Notes under the pieces: model-generated | What the model saw: only the letters and a program-made list of their open reading frames with translations | Databases searched by the model: none | Told to the model about the DNA's origin: nothing | Part shown: in pieces, positions 57,543-63,913 of the stretch | How positions within the stretch are numbered: the stretch's first letter is position 1 | How the letters are laid out: each line of letters opens with the position of its first letter | Source of the DNA: Nisaea sediminum | GTDB lineage: Bacteria; Pseudomonadota; Alphaproteobacteria; Thalassobaculales; Thalassobaculaceae | Length of the DNA: 64,000 bases | Direction: 5' to 3' | Assembly: GCF_014904705.1 (NCBI RefSeq) | Contig: NZ_JACZCQ010000006.1 | Coordinates: 868,001-932,000 of the forward strand | Program-made: the position numbers and the translations under genes

Positions 57543-58403
57543 GTGACCGAGCAGAAACAGAAGATCGCCTTCCAGGGCGAACCCGGCGCAAATTCCCACA
57601 TGGCCTGCCAGGCCGTCCGCCCCGACTTGGAGCCGATGCCCTGCCAGAGCTTTGAGGACATGCTGGAGGCGGTGAAGGCCGGCGAGGCACTCTGCGCCAT
57701 GGTGCCGGTGGAGAATTCCGTCGCCGGACGGGTCGCCGACATCCATCATCTGCTGCCGGAATCGGGACTCCATATCATCGGCGAGCATTTCCAGCGCATC
57801 AACGCGATGCTGCTGGGCGTTCCGGGCACGAAGCTCGAGGACATCCGGGAGATCCGCTCCCATGTCCATGCGCTTGCCCAGTCGCGCAAGCTGATGGCCG
57901 AACTCGGCGCCAAGCCGGTGCAGCATTCCGACACCGCCGGTGCCGCCCGCTATATCTCGGAAAAGGGCGACAAGTCGGTCGCCGCAATCGGGCCGCGGCT
58001 CGCCGCCGAACTGTATGGGCTCGACATCCTGCGCGAGGGCGTCGAGGACGCGGAGCACAATACCACCCGCTTCCTCATCATGGCTCGCGAGGGTGTGGTG
58101 CCGCCGGCCAATAACGGCCGCTGCGTAACCACCATTATCTTCCGAGTGCGCAGCGTGCCGGCTTCGCTCTACAAGGCGCTCGGCGGCTTTGCCACCAACG
58201 GCGTCAACCTGACCAAGCTCGAATCCTACCTGATCGACGGCAAGTTCACGGCCGCCCAGTTTTATGTCGATGCCGAGGGCCATCCGGAGGAGACGCCGCT
58301 GAAGCTGGCGCTCGAGGAACTGCGCTTCTTCTGTCCGCAAGGCGCGGTGAAGATCATGGGCACCTATCCCGCCCACCCGTTCCGCATCGAGAACATCAAC
58401 TGA
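57543..58403 (+). CDS. pheA: Prephenate dehydratase
   Basis: A 286-residue PDT with catalytic domain (IAFQGEPGANSHMACQAV, MVPVENSVAGRVADIHHLL, SDTAGAARYISEKGDKSVAA and NTTRFLIMAREG) and a C-terminal ACT domain (ALGGFATNGVNLTKLESYLIDG, Phe-sensing ESRP-like). It converts prephenate to phenylpyruvate for phenylalanine and is normally feedback-inhibited. The GTG start is at 57543. It directly follows kdsB and precedes the first yciI copy. Confidence 0.96.
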   Translation: MTEQKQKIAFQGEPGANSHMACQAVRPDLEPMPCQSFEDMLEAVKAGEALCAMVPVENSVAGRVADIHHLLPESGLHIIGEHFQRINAMLLGVPGTKLEDIREIRSHVHALAQSRKLMAELGAKPVQHSDTAGAARYISEKGDKSVAAIGPRLAAELYGLDILREGVEDAEHNTTRFLIMAREGVVPPANNGRCVTTIIFRVRSVPASLYKALGGFATNGVNLTKLESYLIDGKFTAAQFYVDAEGHPEETPLKLALEELRFFCPQGAVKIMGTYPAHPFRIENIN

Positions 58404-58458
58404 AACGGAAACGGAAACGGCGCGCCGCGGGCCGCCGGCACAACCAGCACTTAGAGGA

Positions 58459-58760
58459 GCTTCGAATGCCTTACGCCATCATTGCCCGCGACAAGCCCGG
58501 CGCTCTGGACAAGCGGATGGAACACCGTCCGGCCCATGTCGAGTATCTGAAGTCGAAGATGGACCTGATCCTCTGCGGCGGCGCCACCCTCGGCGGCGCG
58601 GACGAGAGCATGGACGGCAGCCTGCTGATCCTCGATACCGAGGACCGCGCGGTGGCCGAGGATTTCGCGAAGAACGATCCCTTCGCCCTCAACGGCGTGT
58701 TCGAGACCGTGACCGTCATGCCGTGGCGCAAGACCATCTGGGACAAGGCCCTGCAGGGCT
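58459..58760 (+). repeat. 302-bp direct repeat, left copy (contains yciI)
   Basis: It runs from GCTTCGAATG to CTGCAGGGCT and repeats at 60710-61011. Only three base substitutions separate the two copies, all within codons 13-16 of the gene. Confidence 0.95.
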
Positions 58761-58762
58761 AA
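58466..58762 (+). CDS. YciI family protein, copy 1
   Basis: A 98-residue YciI-like protein: IIARDKPGALDKRMEHRPAHVEYLKSKM, then GSLLILDTEDRAVAEDFAKNDPF. The YciI/dimeric alpha-beta barrel fold is suggested; the function is unknown, and some members are proposed hydrolases with catalytic His/Asp. GAGGAG lies seven bases before ATG 58466. It follows pheA, and an almost identical gene recurs at 60717. This copy has its stop in TAA rather than TGA. Confidence 0.92.
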   Translation: MPYAIIARDKPGALDKRMEHRPAHVEYLKSKMDLILCGGATLGGADESMDGSLLILDTEDRAVAEDFAKNDPFALNGVFETVTVMPWRKTIWDKALQG

Positions 58763-58795
58763 CGAAGCCCTTCAATCCCATCTCCCGTTCAGGTC

Positions 58796-58825
58796 GTCAT
58801 CCCAGCAAATTTCGGCGGGATGGCG
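58796..58825. repeat. Short degenerate GTCATCCC palindrome
   Basis: GTCATCCCAGCAAATTTCGGCGGGATGGC-like remnant directly after yciI copy 1; the closing arm is imperfect. Confidence 0.4.
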
Positions 58826-59119
58826 GCTGGGAGGTAAAATCCGCGCGAATTGCCCTTTCTTTTTCCGTTTCCGGATTGTGCCGGGCCGTCCGCTTGCGCG
58901 TTCTGCATATGTCGGTATTTCAACCGGCGCGGTGCCCGCACGCGACCCTGGGTGGGGGCAGCGCGTTGGTTCGCCTCTATTCACGATACATTTTAAAATA
59001 GAAAAACGTTCCGGTTCGTGGCGCGTGGTTGCATCGGCGTCGTCGTATTAAAGTATCCCCCTGCTCGGGACACGCGCCCGAAGGGCTTTTTCAAAGTCAT
59101 GGATTGGGGTGATCGGAAA

Positions 59120-60667
59120 ATGAGAAGGGTATTATTGAACGTGATTGCAGGGGCGCTGATGGCAGCGCCGTCTGTCGTCTCGGCACAGGTCACGACCGCT
59201 GGATGCAGCGCTGCACTGAACCCGGGCGAGGTCAGGAAATCGAGCAGCGCGGTTCACTTCGTTCCGGCGATCGAATTGAACTGCAATGGTACCTCGGAGC
59301 AGTGTCTGCCGGGAAACAAGATCCTGGGGACCGGCTACAACGCGGTTTACTCGACGCCTGTTGACGTCATCAACAATCAGGGCACCGGAAGACCGCCCCT
59401 TCCGTCACTCGTTACCCTGACCTGGCCAAGCTCGACGACATGTCCCGGCTGTTCGTTCTCGACAAGCTACAACACTTATCTGGTCCCGGAGGGGGTGACG
59501 GTGACCGACACGGCCCCGGGAGACCAGGCCGATATCCTCACCTCGAGCAGCTATACGTCGTATGGCGAATATTATGCCGCCAAACAGCTGTCCACATATG
59601 TCGGGGTTGAGTCCCCGTGGGTCAGCGGCTCTGTCGCGCTGAACGACGTTCGCACGTCTCTCGATTGCGAAGGAAAAACGGTGACCAGCACGCTGGAGCG
59701 GGTCACCGTCTACAATCTGACGCTGGAGGACAATCCGACGCTCGACCCGGAATTTCTCGAGGATATGCAGGCCTTACCGGCGGTCTACGAAGGCAACGAG
59801 AGCGATTACATCGACTTCATCGAAGATTACGGAACGCATTTCTACAAGTCGCTATGGCTCGGCGGCGTCCTCGCGGCGGAACTGGATATCGAGGCCAGCT
59901 ACGCGAAAGGGAAAAGCTCCTCCCAGATCGAGGCCCAGGCGCAGGCTCAGTATTTCTCCGTCAGCGGTTCGAGCCAGGTGGACAGTTCGGAACGCACCAT
60001 GTCCCAGCAATTCCAGGAGAGCGTCTCGCATCGGTATATGACGCTGGGCGGATCGCAGGCACTTCCCTTTCCGGGCGATCAGACCGAGCACGAGGCGGAA
60101 TACGCGGCCTGGAAAACGGAAGTCCGCACGAACCCGGTTATCGCCAGGACCAGTGTGGAGCCGATCTGGGACCTCATCCCCGACTCCGTCGCGACGGCCA
60201 ATCCGAATCTGGAGGCGAACCTGCAGAGCGGCGTTCAGGCATATCTGGTTCAGGAAATCGCCCGGCTCGGGATACTTCCGAACGCGCCGACGGCCGGCCC
60301 GATATGGGCCGGTGCAGGACATTACTGGTACTGCGGAAGAGAGGGGAACGCGCACACCTATGCTTACAGCTGCGTCGCCCAGCTGAATGGTGGGGCCGAG
60401 ATCGAAAGTCCCTTGAGCCCGAGCACCCATGTTGAAAGTCCTCCGAACGACAGGGACTGCTGGGGGAACAGCATGGAGCTGCCGGTCTGTCCGGCGACGA
60501 CCGTCTTCGGCCAGGAGATGACGGTGACGGGAATGCGGCTCTATCGGATGGACACGGGGGCGCCGCAATATGTCCGGCGAGGACCGGACACCGCCGCGGA
60601 GGTAACGGCATGCCTCACGACCTATGGCGGAGAGGTATGCTGGGTCGGCGATACGCTCGGCCCGTAA
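59120..60667 (+). CDS. Secreted MACPF-domain protein
   Basis: A 515-residue exported protein. Signal peptide VLLNVIAGALMAAPSVVSAQ. The MACPF/CDC signature YGTHFYKSLWLGG is at residues 237-249, inside YIDFIEDYGTHFYKS. Flanking segments are Ser/Thr-rich (SSSQIEAQAQAQYFSV), as in amphipathic TMH hairpins of perforin-like proteins. The C-terminal 120 residues are Cys-rich (YWYCGREGNAHTY, CPATT, CLTTYGGEVCW). MACPF proteins form oligomeric pores or act in attachment; bacterial members are mostly uncharacterised. The start is ATG 59120 (ATG 59099 possible). GC looks lower than the flanks. It lies between two near-identical yciI genes. Confidence 0.82.
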   Translation: MRRVLLNVIAGALMAAPSVVSAQVTTAGCSAALNPGEVRKSSSAVHFVPAIELNCNGTSEQCLPGNKILGTGYNAVYSTPVDVINNQGTGRPPLPSLVTLTWPSSTTCPGCSFSTSYNTYLVPEGVTVTDTAPGDQADILTSSSYTSYGEYYAAKQLSTYVGVESPWVSGSVALNDVRTSLDCEGKTVTSTLERVTVYNLTLEDNPTLDPEFLEDMQALPAVYEGNESDYIDFIEDYGTHFYKSLWLGGVLAAELDIEASYAKGKSSSQIEAQAQAQYFSVSGSSQVDSSERTMSQQFQESVSHRYMTLGGSQALPFPGDQTEHEAEYAAWKTEVRTNPVIARTSVEPIWDLIPDSVATANPNLEANLQSGVQAYLVQEIARLGILPNAPTAGPIWAGAGHYWYCGREGNAHTYAYSCVAQLNGGAEIESPLSPSTHVESPPNDRDCWGNSMELPVCPATTVFGQEMTVTGMRLYRMDTGAPQYVRRGPDTAAEVTACLTTYGGEVCWVGDTLGP

Positions 60668-60709
60668 ACGACGGGGGCCGGCCGTTTGTTCCGGGACCGG
60701 GAGGGAGGC

Positions 60710-61011
60710 GCTTCGAATGCCTTACGCCATCATTGCCCGCGACAAGCCCGGCGCCCTCGAGAAGCGGATGGAACACCGTCCGGCCCATGTCGAGTATCTG
60801 AAGTCGAAGATGGACCTGATCCTCTGCGGCGGCGCCACCCTCGGCGGCGCGGACGAGAGCATGGACGGCAGCCTGCTGATCCTCGATACCGAGGACCGCG
60901 CGGTGGCCGAGGATTTCGCGAAGAACGATCCCTTCGCCCTCAACGGCGTGTTCGAGACCGTGACCGTCATGCCGTGGCGCAAGACCATCTGGGACAAGGC
61001 CCTGCAGGGCT
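60710..61011 (+). repeat. 302-bp direct repeat, right copy (contains yciI)
   Basis: Same orientation as 58459-58760 with three substitutions. It begins 43 bp after the MACPF stop. Confidence 0.95.
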
Positions 61012-61013
61012 GA
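60717..61013 (+). CDS. YciI family protein, copy 2
   Basis: A 98-residue protein identical to the copy at 58466 except Asp16 to Glu. Two of the three base changes are silent and clustered next to that codon, so the copy is very recent or maintained by gene conversion. The upstream context differs (GGGAGGGAGGCG site instead of GAGGAG), showing that this copy received a new ribosome site and probably reads through from the MACPF gene. A hairpin follows at 61022. Confidence 0.92.
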   Translation: MPYAIIARDKPGALEKRMEHRPAHVEYLKSKMDLILCGGATLGGADESMDGSLLILDTEDRAVAEDFAKNDPFALNGVFETVTVMPWRKTIWDKALQG

Positions 61014-61021
61014 CACACGAT

Positions 61022-61057
61022 CGGGAAAGGGTGAGCAGGATAGCTCACCTTTTCCCG
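61022..61057 (+). terminator. Hairpin, possible terminator after yciI copy 2
   Basis: CGGGAAAGGGTGAGC (61022-61036) pairs with GCTCACCTTTTCCCG (61043-61057) through a six-base loop, with one G-U pair. It starts nine bases past the yciI stop; a TTTTT tract appears only about seven bases later, so termination efficiency is uncertain. Confidence 0.6.
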
Positions 61058-61151
61058 GCCAGGTTTTTGCTCCCTCGCTACCACCGCCTCGAGGCGGTGC
61101 CTGCGAAGCGCGGAACCGCTTTCTCCGAGAGTTATCTCCCGCATTCCGGTC

Positions 61152-61232: not shown

Positions 61233-61761
61233 GACAGGGATATGGATTGCGGGCTTACGCTTTTCGGCTGCCGGACCTGCCGCTTGGTCCCGTTCTGTCA
61301 CCACAGTGTAGGACCGGCCGGGGCGATTCTTTCCGGAATATGTATCGCAACAGATCAACGGACGTCGCCAGAGGACGGATTCTCGGCCGCGCACCACTCA
61401 CATTTTCTTTATTTTTCAATATATTAATGGCTGCCTAACGGGTCTGTAACGCGCAAATAACGCTCCTCGCCTCTAATGTCCCTCGCCAGCTGGATTTGGC
61501 GGCGCCGACAGAAGGAACGGCTTGTATTTGAGAGGAGCAGCGCGAATTTGCTGCGAACACATTCTCAGAAGCAAATTTTCACGAGAGTCATATTTTCGGG
61601 CCATGCGTCGTCCGCGCGTCGCATGGCCCTTTTACTATTCTGAAGATCCCGGTCACGCCCTCACGCCTCCCCTCATCGGGGGACGGGCATGGACGGCGGT
61701 CCTCTAATCCCCCACTCTCTTGGCGAAGCGGCCGGAACAAGGCCATGCGGGGGAGGATGAA
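61233..61761. other. Gene-poor stretch with an orphan hairpin
   Basis: About 530 bp with no credible gene. It contains AT-rich tracts around 61400-61440 and a terminator-like hairpin at 61598-61633. Short open frames here lack ribosome sites and coding character. Confidence 0.5.
61598..61633 (+). terminator. Orphan terminator-like hairpin
   Basis: GGGCCATGCG and CGCATGGCCC form a perfect 10-bp stem with a 12-base loop followed by TTTTA. No protein-coding gene ends here, so it may close a small RNA transcribed from the AT-rich region to the left. Confidence 0.55.
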
Positions 61762-62817
61762 ATGGCGAAATACAGGATCGCGGTTGCGGGAGCCGGCGTC
61801 ATCGGGCGGGAGCACTGCAAGCTGATCGCGGCCCATCCGGACGTCGCACTGGCGGGCATCGCCGACCCGGACCCGGCGGCGCCGGCCTATGCGGCAAGCC
61901 TCGGCACTCCGCATTTCCCCGATCTGGAGACCATGCTGGATGCGACCGGGCCGGACGGTGCAATCGTCGCCCTGCCAACCGGCCTGCACAAATCCGCCGG
62001 CCTCGCCTGTATCGAGCGCGGTATCCCGAGCCTGATGGAGAAGCCGGTCGCGGCGACGCTCGCGGACGCGTTCGAACTGGCGCGGGCGAGCAAGGCCGCC
62101 GGCATTCCCGTTCTCGTCGGCCATCACCGGCGCCACAGCCCCGATATCGGGCTGGCCCGCGAGACCGTGGCGAGCGGCAGGCTCGGCCGCATCGTGACGG
62201 TGAGCGGCATGTGGTGGGTCGACAAGCCGGAGAGCTATTTCGACGTCGCCTGGCGGCGCCAGGAGGGCGGCGGCACGCTGCTCATCAACCTGATCCATGA
62301 TATCGACTGCATGCGCTTCATTCTCGGCGAGATAAGCCGGGTCAGCGCCTTCACCTCTAACGCGGTGCGCGGCCTCGCCGTGGAGGATACGGCGAGCGTT
62401 TCCTTCGAGTTCGAGAGCGGCGTGCTCGGCGGCTTCACCATCAGCGACGCCGTCGCCTCGCCCTACAGCTGGGAGCGCGCCTCGGGCCAGGCGCTCTACT
62501 TCCCGCACCAGCCGGAAAACTACCTCTTCATCGGCGGCCGCGACGGAGCGCTCGAGGTGCCGACGATGGAACACTGGCACCACGGGCCCGGCGGCGGCGA
62601 CTGGCAGAACGACCTCGTCCGCGAGACCCTGCCGCTCGACGGCAGCCGGACCTACGAGAACCAGCTCGCGCATTTCCTGAAGGTGATCGATGGCGCCGAG
62701 CCGCCGGTCATCGACGCCGAGGACGGCGCCCGGACGCTCGCCGTGCTGCTCGCGGTGAAGACGGCGGCAAAGGAGGGCCGGGTGGTCGACGTCGCGGAGA
62801 TGCTGGAGGGACTGTAG
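61762..62817 (+). CDS. Gfo/Idh/MocA family oxidoreductase
   Basis: A 351-residue NAD(P)-dependent oxidoreductase. The N-terminal Rossmann domain begins IAVAGAGVIGREHCKLIAAH, and the EKP motif is in SLMEKPVAATLADAFELA. The C-terminal domain carries GHHRRHSPDIGLARETVASG and GGGTLLINLIHDIDCMRF (catalytic Asp/His helix). The substrate is a sugar, inositol or similar compound; it is not predictable. Strong GGGGAGGA site five bases before ATG 61762. Confidence 0.9.
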   Translation: MAKYRIAVAGAGVIGREHCKLIAAHPDVALAGIADPDPAAPAYAASLGTPHFPDLETMLDATGPDGAIVALPTGLHKSAGLACIERGIPSLMEKPVAATLADAFELARASKAAGIPVLVGHHRRHSPDIGLARETVASGRLGRIVTVSGMWWVDKPESYFDVAWRRQEGGGTLLINLIHDIDCMRFILGEISRVSAFTSNAVRGLAVEDTASVSFEFESGVLGGFTISDAVASPYSWERASGQALYFPHQPENYLFIGGRDGALEVPTMEHWHHGPGGGDWQNDLVRETLPLDGSRTYENQLAHFLKVIDGAEPPVIDAEDGARTLAVLLAVKTAAKEGRVVDVAEMLEGL

Positions 62818-62847
62818 GGGACGGCTGAGCTCACGCTCTCTACAATC

Positions 62848-62929
62848 GTCATCCCGGACCCCGATCCGGGATCCACTCTCCGGCGTGTCACTCCCGTAGC
62901 CAGTGGATCCTGACGTCCGTCGGGATGAC
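62848..62929. repeat. 82-bp palindrome, GGATCCACTCT subtype, left of hxlR locus
   Basis: Arms GTCATCCCGGACCCCGATCC and CGTCGGGATGAC, with internal GGATCCACTCTCCGG and CAGTGGATCC. It is the same size, subtype and orientation as the copy at 63781-63862. Confidence 0.82.
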
Positions 62930-62932
62930 GGG

Positions 62933-63688: not shown

Positions 63689-63780
63689 GCCGCGACTGAG
63701 CGAAGCTTCGCCGGACCCGCGAAAGCCGGAAGGGTGCAGCGGACGCTTTCCGCTCCCGTTTCTCAATGCTCCTCAACATC

Positions 63781-63862
63781 GTCATCCCGGACTCCGATCC
63801 GGGATCCACTCTTCGATGCGTCCCACCCGTCGCCAGTGGATCCCGACTTGCGTCGGGATGAC
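63781..63862. repeat. 82-bp palindrome, GGATCCACTCT subtype, right of hxlR locus
   Basis: Near-identical to the element at 62848, in the same orientation. Together they form direct repeats 933 bp apart around the hxlR locus. Confidence 0.82.
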
Positions 63863-63913
63863 GGTTGCGGGGCGTGTTCCGCATTGAGAGACGTGTTCCC
63901 GTAACTCGCTGTG

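Follow-up and report, generated by a model that had tools for sequence, protein, structure and literature searches.

The window, which is the whole stretch of 64,000 nucleotides analysed here, was taken from Nisaea sediminum (contig NZ_JACZCQ010000006.1, positions 868,001 to 932,000). It contains a direct repeat of 310 nt, the two copies of which are 98.4% identical, lie in the same orientation 2,251 nt apart (start to start) and enclose an intact MACPF gene (Table 1). Each copy consists of a ribosome-binding region and a complete yciI ORF of 98 codons. A yciI repeat in this arrangement had been described in an earlier, sequence-only reading of the same DNA; it was recovered by sequence comparison and is a real observation. 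Three clustered differences had been counted between the copies; the full 310-nt repeat has five. Three of them are at yciI ORF positions 39, 42 and 45 (codons 13-15), a fourth is in the ribosome-binding region, and the fifth affects the stop codon, which is TAA in copy 1 and TGA in copy 2. Three differences within seven bases have a probability of about 0.001 if placed at random. The amino acid change, given earlier as Asp16, is Asp15 in copy 1 and Glu15 in copy 2 when Met is counted as 1. Flanking sequences of the two copies are unlike on the upstream side, as had been noted, and also downstream.

Both yciI copies matched the YciI family PF03795 (72 and 72.9 bits, curated cut-off 24). Eight NCBIfam YciI equivalog models were matched as well, each with a score under its cut-off. 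The base rate of local repeats (at least 120 bp) was taken from 1.0 Mb of the window's contig, out of a genome of 5.02 Mb in 22 contigs. The yciI repeat was the only one above 93% identity; the remainder ranged from 80 to 92.4% and were mostly found in clusters of repetitive sequence. At C6:360509-367599 and C6:441487-467303 there are a repeat of about 1.1 kb in three copies (85-91% identity) and long stretches with internal direct repeats, probably very large repetitive genes.

Table 1. Features at the yciI-MACPF locus (window coordinates).
Feature	Position	Strand	Remarks
pheA-type prephenate dehydratase gene	57543..58403	+	PF00800, E 2e-56; conserved left neighbour in 5/5 Nisaea genomes
Repeat copy 1	58454..58763	+	yciI ORF 58466-58762, stop TAA; PF03795, E 5.7e-20; native left flank
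Spacer after copy 1	58763..59119		GC 0.569; unlike the post-yciI sequence of relatives
MACPF gene	59120..60667	+	515 aa; PF01823, 91 bits
Spacer from MACPF gene to copy 2	60668..60704		GC 0.757
Repeat copy 2	60705..61014	+	yciI ORF 60717-61013, stop TGA; native right flank; downstream sequence like that of MAG HXMU1428-11
Terminator-like hairpin after copy 2	61021..61058	+	similar sequence in MAG HXMU1428-11
Gfo/Idh/MocA-type oxidoreductase gene	61762..62817	+	resident slot gene, common to G001 and MAG HXMU1428-11

The MACPF ORF is intact and matched PF01823 with an E-value of 1.5e-25 (91.1 bits, curated cut-off 21.5). The MACPF signature motif was matched as YGTHFYKSLWLGG at residue 237 of the 515-aa protein, and the N-terminus was judged by eye to be signal-peptide-like. 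The best matches by sequence among solved structures were Toxoplasma perforin-like protein 1 (PLP1; E 5e-9), complement C9 and perforin-1, and none of the 27 solved chains matched at E up to 1 carried the name of a bacterial MACPF protein. A single-sequence structure model had a mean pLDDT of 35 and was too poor for use. From the domain, the product is predicted to be a secreted pore-forming protein. The composition of the inserted DNA is mildly unusual. Its lower GC, which had been noticed earlier, is real (0.608 against a mean of 0.651 in equal-sized windows) but mild, 10.4% of windows being as low; GC3 was 0.748, where 42 ORFs chosen mechanically averaged 0.810.

MACPF was not found in the 60 relatives searched, the PF01823 profile had no match in 35 other genomes of the family, and a search with the MACPF protein found none in 397 other genomes of the phylum (these three sets overlap). 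In 384 other genomes sampled from the class, PF01823 was found in three, and those loci matched the cargo weakly (best E 2.6e-6 over 106 residues). On this sample the cargo, a perforin-like exported protein of a marine bacterium, is rare in its class (Alphaproteobacteria). Compared with the other four Nisaea genomes described below, the cargo DNA gave only a 43-bp stretch in N. nitritireducens (E 1.9e-4), and the spacer after copy 1 gave no DNA match. Searches for a source of the cargo had no match in plasmids (tblastn and blastn) or phages, nor in viral contigs or a GTDB contig scan, the last two of which reach close relatives only. The cargo could have a part in contacts between the bacterium and protists or other cells.

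The same site was compared in five Nisaea genomes: the window genome (G000), a second Nisaea genome (G001), Nisaea denitrificans DSM 18348 (G002), Nisaea nitritireducens DSM 19540 (G003) and the MAG Nisaea sp. HXMU1428-11 (G004). In all five, pheA is followed by yciI. Sites with one yciI and no MACPF, which the sequence-only reading had suggested looking for among relatives, were found in G001 and the MAG. The single yciI of the MAG continues into the sequence found after copy 2 of the window, and that of G001 is followed by about 190 bp and then by the same oxidoreductase as in the window. That the MACPF stretch is an insertion relative to the relatives, as had been proposed, is well supported by comparison with these single-yciI sites and with the 60 relatives in which MACPF was not found.

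A different gene, encoding a P-type ATPase and unrelated to MACPF, lies directly after yciI in N. denitrificans and N. nitritireducens. The two ATPase proteins are 99.4% identical, and their best matches in the other three genomes reach 42%. Divergence at fourfold sites between the two species was about equal for the ATPase (22/567) and pheA (7/160), so the ATPase gene probably predates their split. Beyond the ATPase of N. denitrificans lie 83 bp that repeat the 3' end of yciI (95% identical), and then a HIT-like gene (under the Pfam cut-off) seen in one of the five genomes. No yciI remnant was found in the 625 bp between the ATPase and the contig end of N. nitritireducens, and no other yciI match at E 1e-3 in that genome. 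A second yciI segment thus lies past the cargo in two of the three cargo-bearing genomes, the third (N. nitritireducens) being cut off by the contig end. A bare tandem yciI pair was found in none of the five.

Stretches of 25-34 kb from G001, N. denitrificans and the MAG were compared with the window genome. Similarity on the left side runs up to the yciI stop codon, and in all three genomes it returns at the stop codon of ttdB, a gene named by eye from its sequence and lying beside an alpha-subunit gene (PF05681). The two genes are convergent, and the space from stop to stop is a variable slot of about 6.9 kb in the window genome, 3.2 kb in G001, 6.9 kb in N. denitrificans and 2.1 kb in the MAG, the four genomes in which both ends are present. 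The window genome has the oxidoreductase and HxlR genes of the slot in common with G001, and the oxidoreductase and its upstream region in common with the MAG. N. denitrificans has no match of at least 150 bp to the window genome from stop to stop, and it has none of the tested genes in common with the other three of these genomes. The 120 nt after the yciI stop fall into five groups (window copy 1; window copy 2 and the MAG; G001; N. denitrificans and N. nitritireducens; the N. denitrificans remnant) with no similarity between groups above that of shuffled sequences, except for one borderline pair, window copy 1 and G001, which equalled the best of 100 shuffles. This borderline similarity probably comes from a short palindromic repeat. 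Since the contents differ among genomes, the space between yciI and ttdB is, on this comparison, an accessory-gene hotspot with borders at two stop codons and with unrelated content flanked by the same conserved genes. The two borders are alike in sharpness, and this argues for a tolerated space between converging genes more than for one attachment site. The position between two converging stop codons may be what allows the slot to accept foreign genes.

Several other features of the slot and its surroundings were recorded. A noncoding segment at 61441-61640 (+) is almost identical between the window genome and the MAG (two overlapping windows differ at 1/120 and 0/120 positions) while its flanks have diverged far more, ends with a strong hairpin and T run, and has a fold z-score of -2.94; it is present in two of the five Nisaea genomes, has no Rfam match and looks like a small RNA gene. 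An Rfam scan of the window gave nothing at gathering score. In a hairpin scan, four sites were found against 3.5 expected, and the one after copy 2 has the longest stem (16 pairs). Direct repeats of 87 nt (62845-62931 and 63778-63864, 87% identical) flank the HxlR regulator gene and belong to a palindromic family of the GGGATGAC type; the corresponding region of G001 holds a direct repeat of 233 bp (86%). Just past the window and in the same slot, a GNAT acetyltransferase gene adjoins a TacA1-like antitoxin gene (L143:12553-13435, -), likely a toxin-antitoxin pair. In the N. denitrificans slot, an M78-peptidase protein (L032:4590-5843, -) matches the PADLOC RmrA models (best E 1e-20) and was the only one of six proteins scanned with PADLOC to match. 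Two further insertion points lie near the slot: at C6:935358-935375, where N. denitrificans has an extra 6.4 kb and G001 an extra 0.7 kb, and at C6:947847-949033, where the window genome has about 1.2 kb extra.

Of the two yciI copies in the window, copy 1 has the native left flank and copy 2 the native right flank. Copy 2 is the same as the MAG at codons 13-15 and at the stop codon, and copy 1 is the same as the relatives in the ribosome-binding region. Five positions are common to both copies and found in none of the four relatives (the alignment is less certain around the leftmost of them), so both copies would derive from the yciI of this lineage or have been made alike since. Fourfold differences numbered 2/50 between the copies and 2/48 between copy 2 and the MAG, against 37/151 in pheA between the window genome and the MAG. 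Over all bases, the copies are 99.0% identical to each other and 95.2-96.3% to the MAG. Low divergence of yciI from the MAG was considered as a sign of recent transfer and dropped, the centre of yciI being conserved in G001 too. By these counts, silent differences do not date the copies.

No PF00589 integrase was found within 100 kb of the slot as far as the contigs of the five genomes reach; the N. nitritireducens contig is only 5.1 kb long. Where the contig allows, PF00589 matches come no closer to the slot than about 110 kb. No tRNA or tmRNA gene was found in the six stretches searched at the slot. With neither an integrase of this family nor such a gene at the slot, the reading of yciI as an attachment site was set aside. 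By eye, a palindrome of 12 bp was noticed at the 3' end of yciI; being imperfect in G001 and N. denitrificans, it was given no weight. A displaced end of a target gene would fit the 83-bp segment of N. denitrificans; it would not fit the window, where the whole gene is present, and in N. nitritireducens no displaced end was seen. The sequence-only reading had proposed a mobile cassette using yciI as its attachment or homology site. Of this, the insertion stands, and N. denitrificans adds a case in which another cargo lies between yciI and a second 3' end of that gene. Active mobility and an attachment site are not well supported, as no PF00589 integrase lies near the slot, no attachment site was recognised and the composition is only mildly unusual. 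Because the variable slot spans yciI stop to ttdB stop, calling the MACPF stretch a 'mobile cassette' claims more than counting it among the several cargos of a hotspot.

Our main reading is that slot content 'yciI-MACPF' was added beside another by homology, with yciI as the seam, and we give this a probability of roughly 0.45. The MACPF stretch sits at the yciI edge of the slot with yciI on both sides, and yciI would have been the homology arm. DNA of the variant 'yciI-MACPF' would have entered a cell carrying the variant 'yciI-resident genes' and paired at yciI by ordinary homologous recombination. A plain double exchange would leave one yciI; two copies would result from adding the incoming content beside the resident content and not in its place. 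The incoming DNA could have been a circle, taken in by a single crossover in yciI, or it could have bridged two sister chromosomes with one end joined imprecisely. Two slot variants would then have met in one population and been joined by RecA-type recombination, and recombination between the copies could later free a circle carrying MACPF and one yciI.

Addition by homology is consistent with the single-yciI sites, the five unrelated post-stop sequences, the ATPase cargo, the N. denitrificans remnant, the variable slot length and the lack of a PF00589 match within 100 kb of the slot as far as the contigs reach. The flank pattern and the MAG-like codons 13-15 of copy 2 fit one crossover near the yciI start, a pattern of little power as it has one informative internal block of differences. 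Against it, the donor with a single yciI and MACPF is hypothetical, no such genome having been found, and the ATPase of N. nitritireducens has no yciI remnant in the 625 bp beyond it. No clear homology was seen at the right joint. Because of the five positions that set both copies apart from the four relatives, the donor would have come from the same lineage, or the copies would have been homogenised.

The main rival, which we consider rather unlikely, is break repair or template switching, in which a foreign MACPF fragment without yciI homology would have been joined between staggered or re-copied ends, with duplication of about 310 bp of host DNA; a like event in N. denitrificans would have duplicated 83 bp. 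The lineage-specific bases in both copies are as expected if the host yciI was copied, and the unequal repeat lengths in the two cases also fit. Random breaks would not predict that the duplicated stretch corresponds closely to ribosome-binding region to stop, nor that similarity of the yciI segments stops at the stop codon in both cases, though selection for an intact gene would favour gene-shaped borders. Another possibility is two separate events, an ordinary tandem duplication of yciI and a later, unrelated MACPF insertion between the copies. In its favour, what was duplicated is precisely a single gene together with its ribosome-binding region, and both copies come from the yciI of this lineage. 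Two events would then be needed at the same junction in each of two lineages, and no bare tandem pair was found among the five genomes; we regard this course as improbable.

Little probability is likewise given to site-specific integration by a recombinase whose gene lies elsewhere, which would act at the 3' end of yciI and regenerate the gene end, as for islands at tRNA genes. N. denitrificans resembles a gene 3' end displaced past the cargo, and five unrelated sequences start at the yciI stop, but the window duplicates a whole gene and not an end, the ttdB border is just as sharp, and the distance to the nearest PF00589 match and the lack of a nearby tRNA gene are also against it. Misassembly is very improbable: a repeat near 300 bp can confuse short-read assembly, but the copies have five differences, all flanks pass into separate unique sequences, the MAG shows the same continuation after yciI as copy 2, and the contig is 1.0 Mb long.

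The yciI remnant of N. denitrificans suggests that an addition of the kind preferred here has also occurred with another cargo. A more general reading, which is possible but doubtful, is that yciI acts as a homology handle for tandem stacking of alternative slot contents. Each addition would leave the border gene behind as a seam, whole or as a remnant, and the cargo could later leave as a small circle with one yciI. If true, it would be the equivalent, without a recombinase, of the tandem accretion of islands at attachment sites, exemplified by two lineages of one genus that carry different cargo (MACPF and a P-type ATPase).

Parts of the arrangement have counterparts in published accounts. 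Bacterial MACPF proteins, such as the secreted Bth-MACPF of Bacteroides, are described as sporadic in bacteria, and the authors hold them to be of eukaryotic origin (PMC2954219). The Nisaea protein is alike in its MACPF domain, export-type start and bacterial host; it differs in that the solved chains nearest to it by sequence are those listed above (PLP1, C9 and perforin-1). A small genomic island of E. coli has no recombinase and is excised between short direct repeats, excision having been demonstrated (PMC5426353). The Nisaea cargo is also framed by direct repeats and has no recombinase of its own, but its excision is a prediction and its repeat is a whole gene. In pneumococcal transformation, merodiploids are formed by interchromatid integration, a route that was proposed and supported (Johnston et al., 2013, PMC3784515). 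There too, incoming DNA with partial homology duplicates host sequence without replacement; those duplications are about 100-900 kb and bordered by repeats, whereas that of Nisaea is 0.3 kb with foreign DNA between the copies. Half of the accessory-gene hotspots described by Oliveira et al. (2017, PMC5635113) are without mobile elements and are turned over by recombination at flanking core genes. The Nisaea slot likewise holds different accessory genes between the same two core genes, with no integrase seen at the site. It differs from the hotspots as described there in that the border gene itself is duplicated around single cargos in two lineages, where a plain double exchange leaves one copy. 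The slot is an ordinary kind of hotspot with an unusual trace, the duplicated border gene. Hotspots without mobile elements are common (PMC5635113), but the addition of a single foreign gene to one is rarely observed directly. Copies of a border gene left among the cargos would record such additions in readable form and could be searched for at other hotspots.
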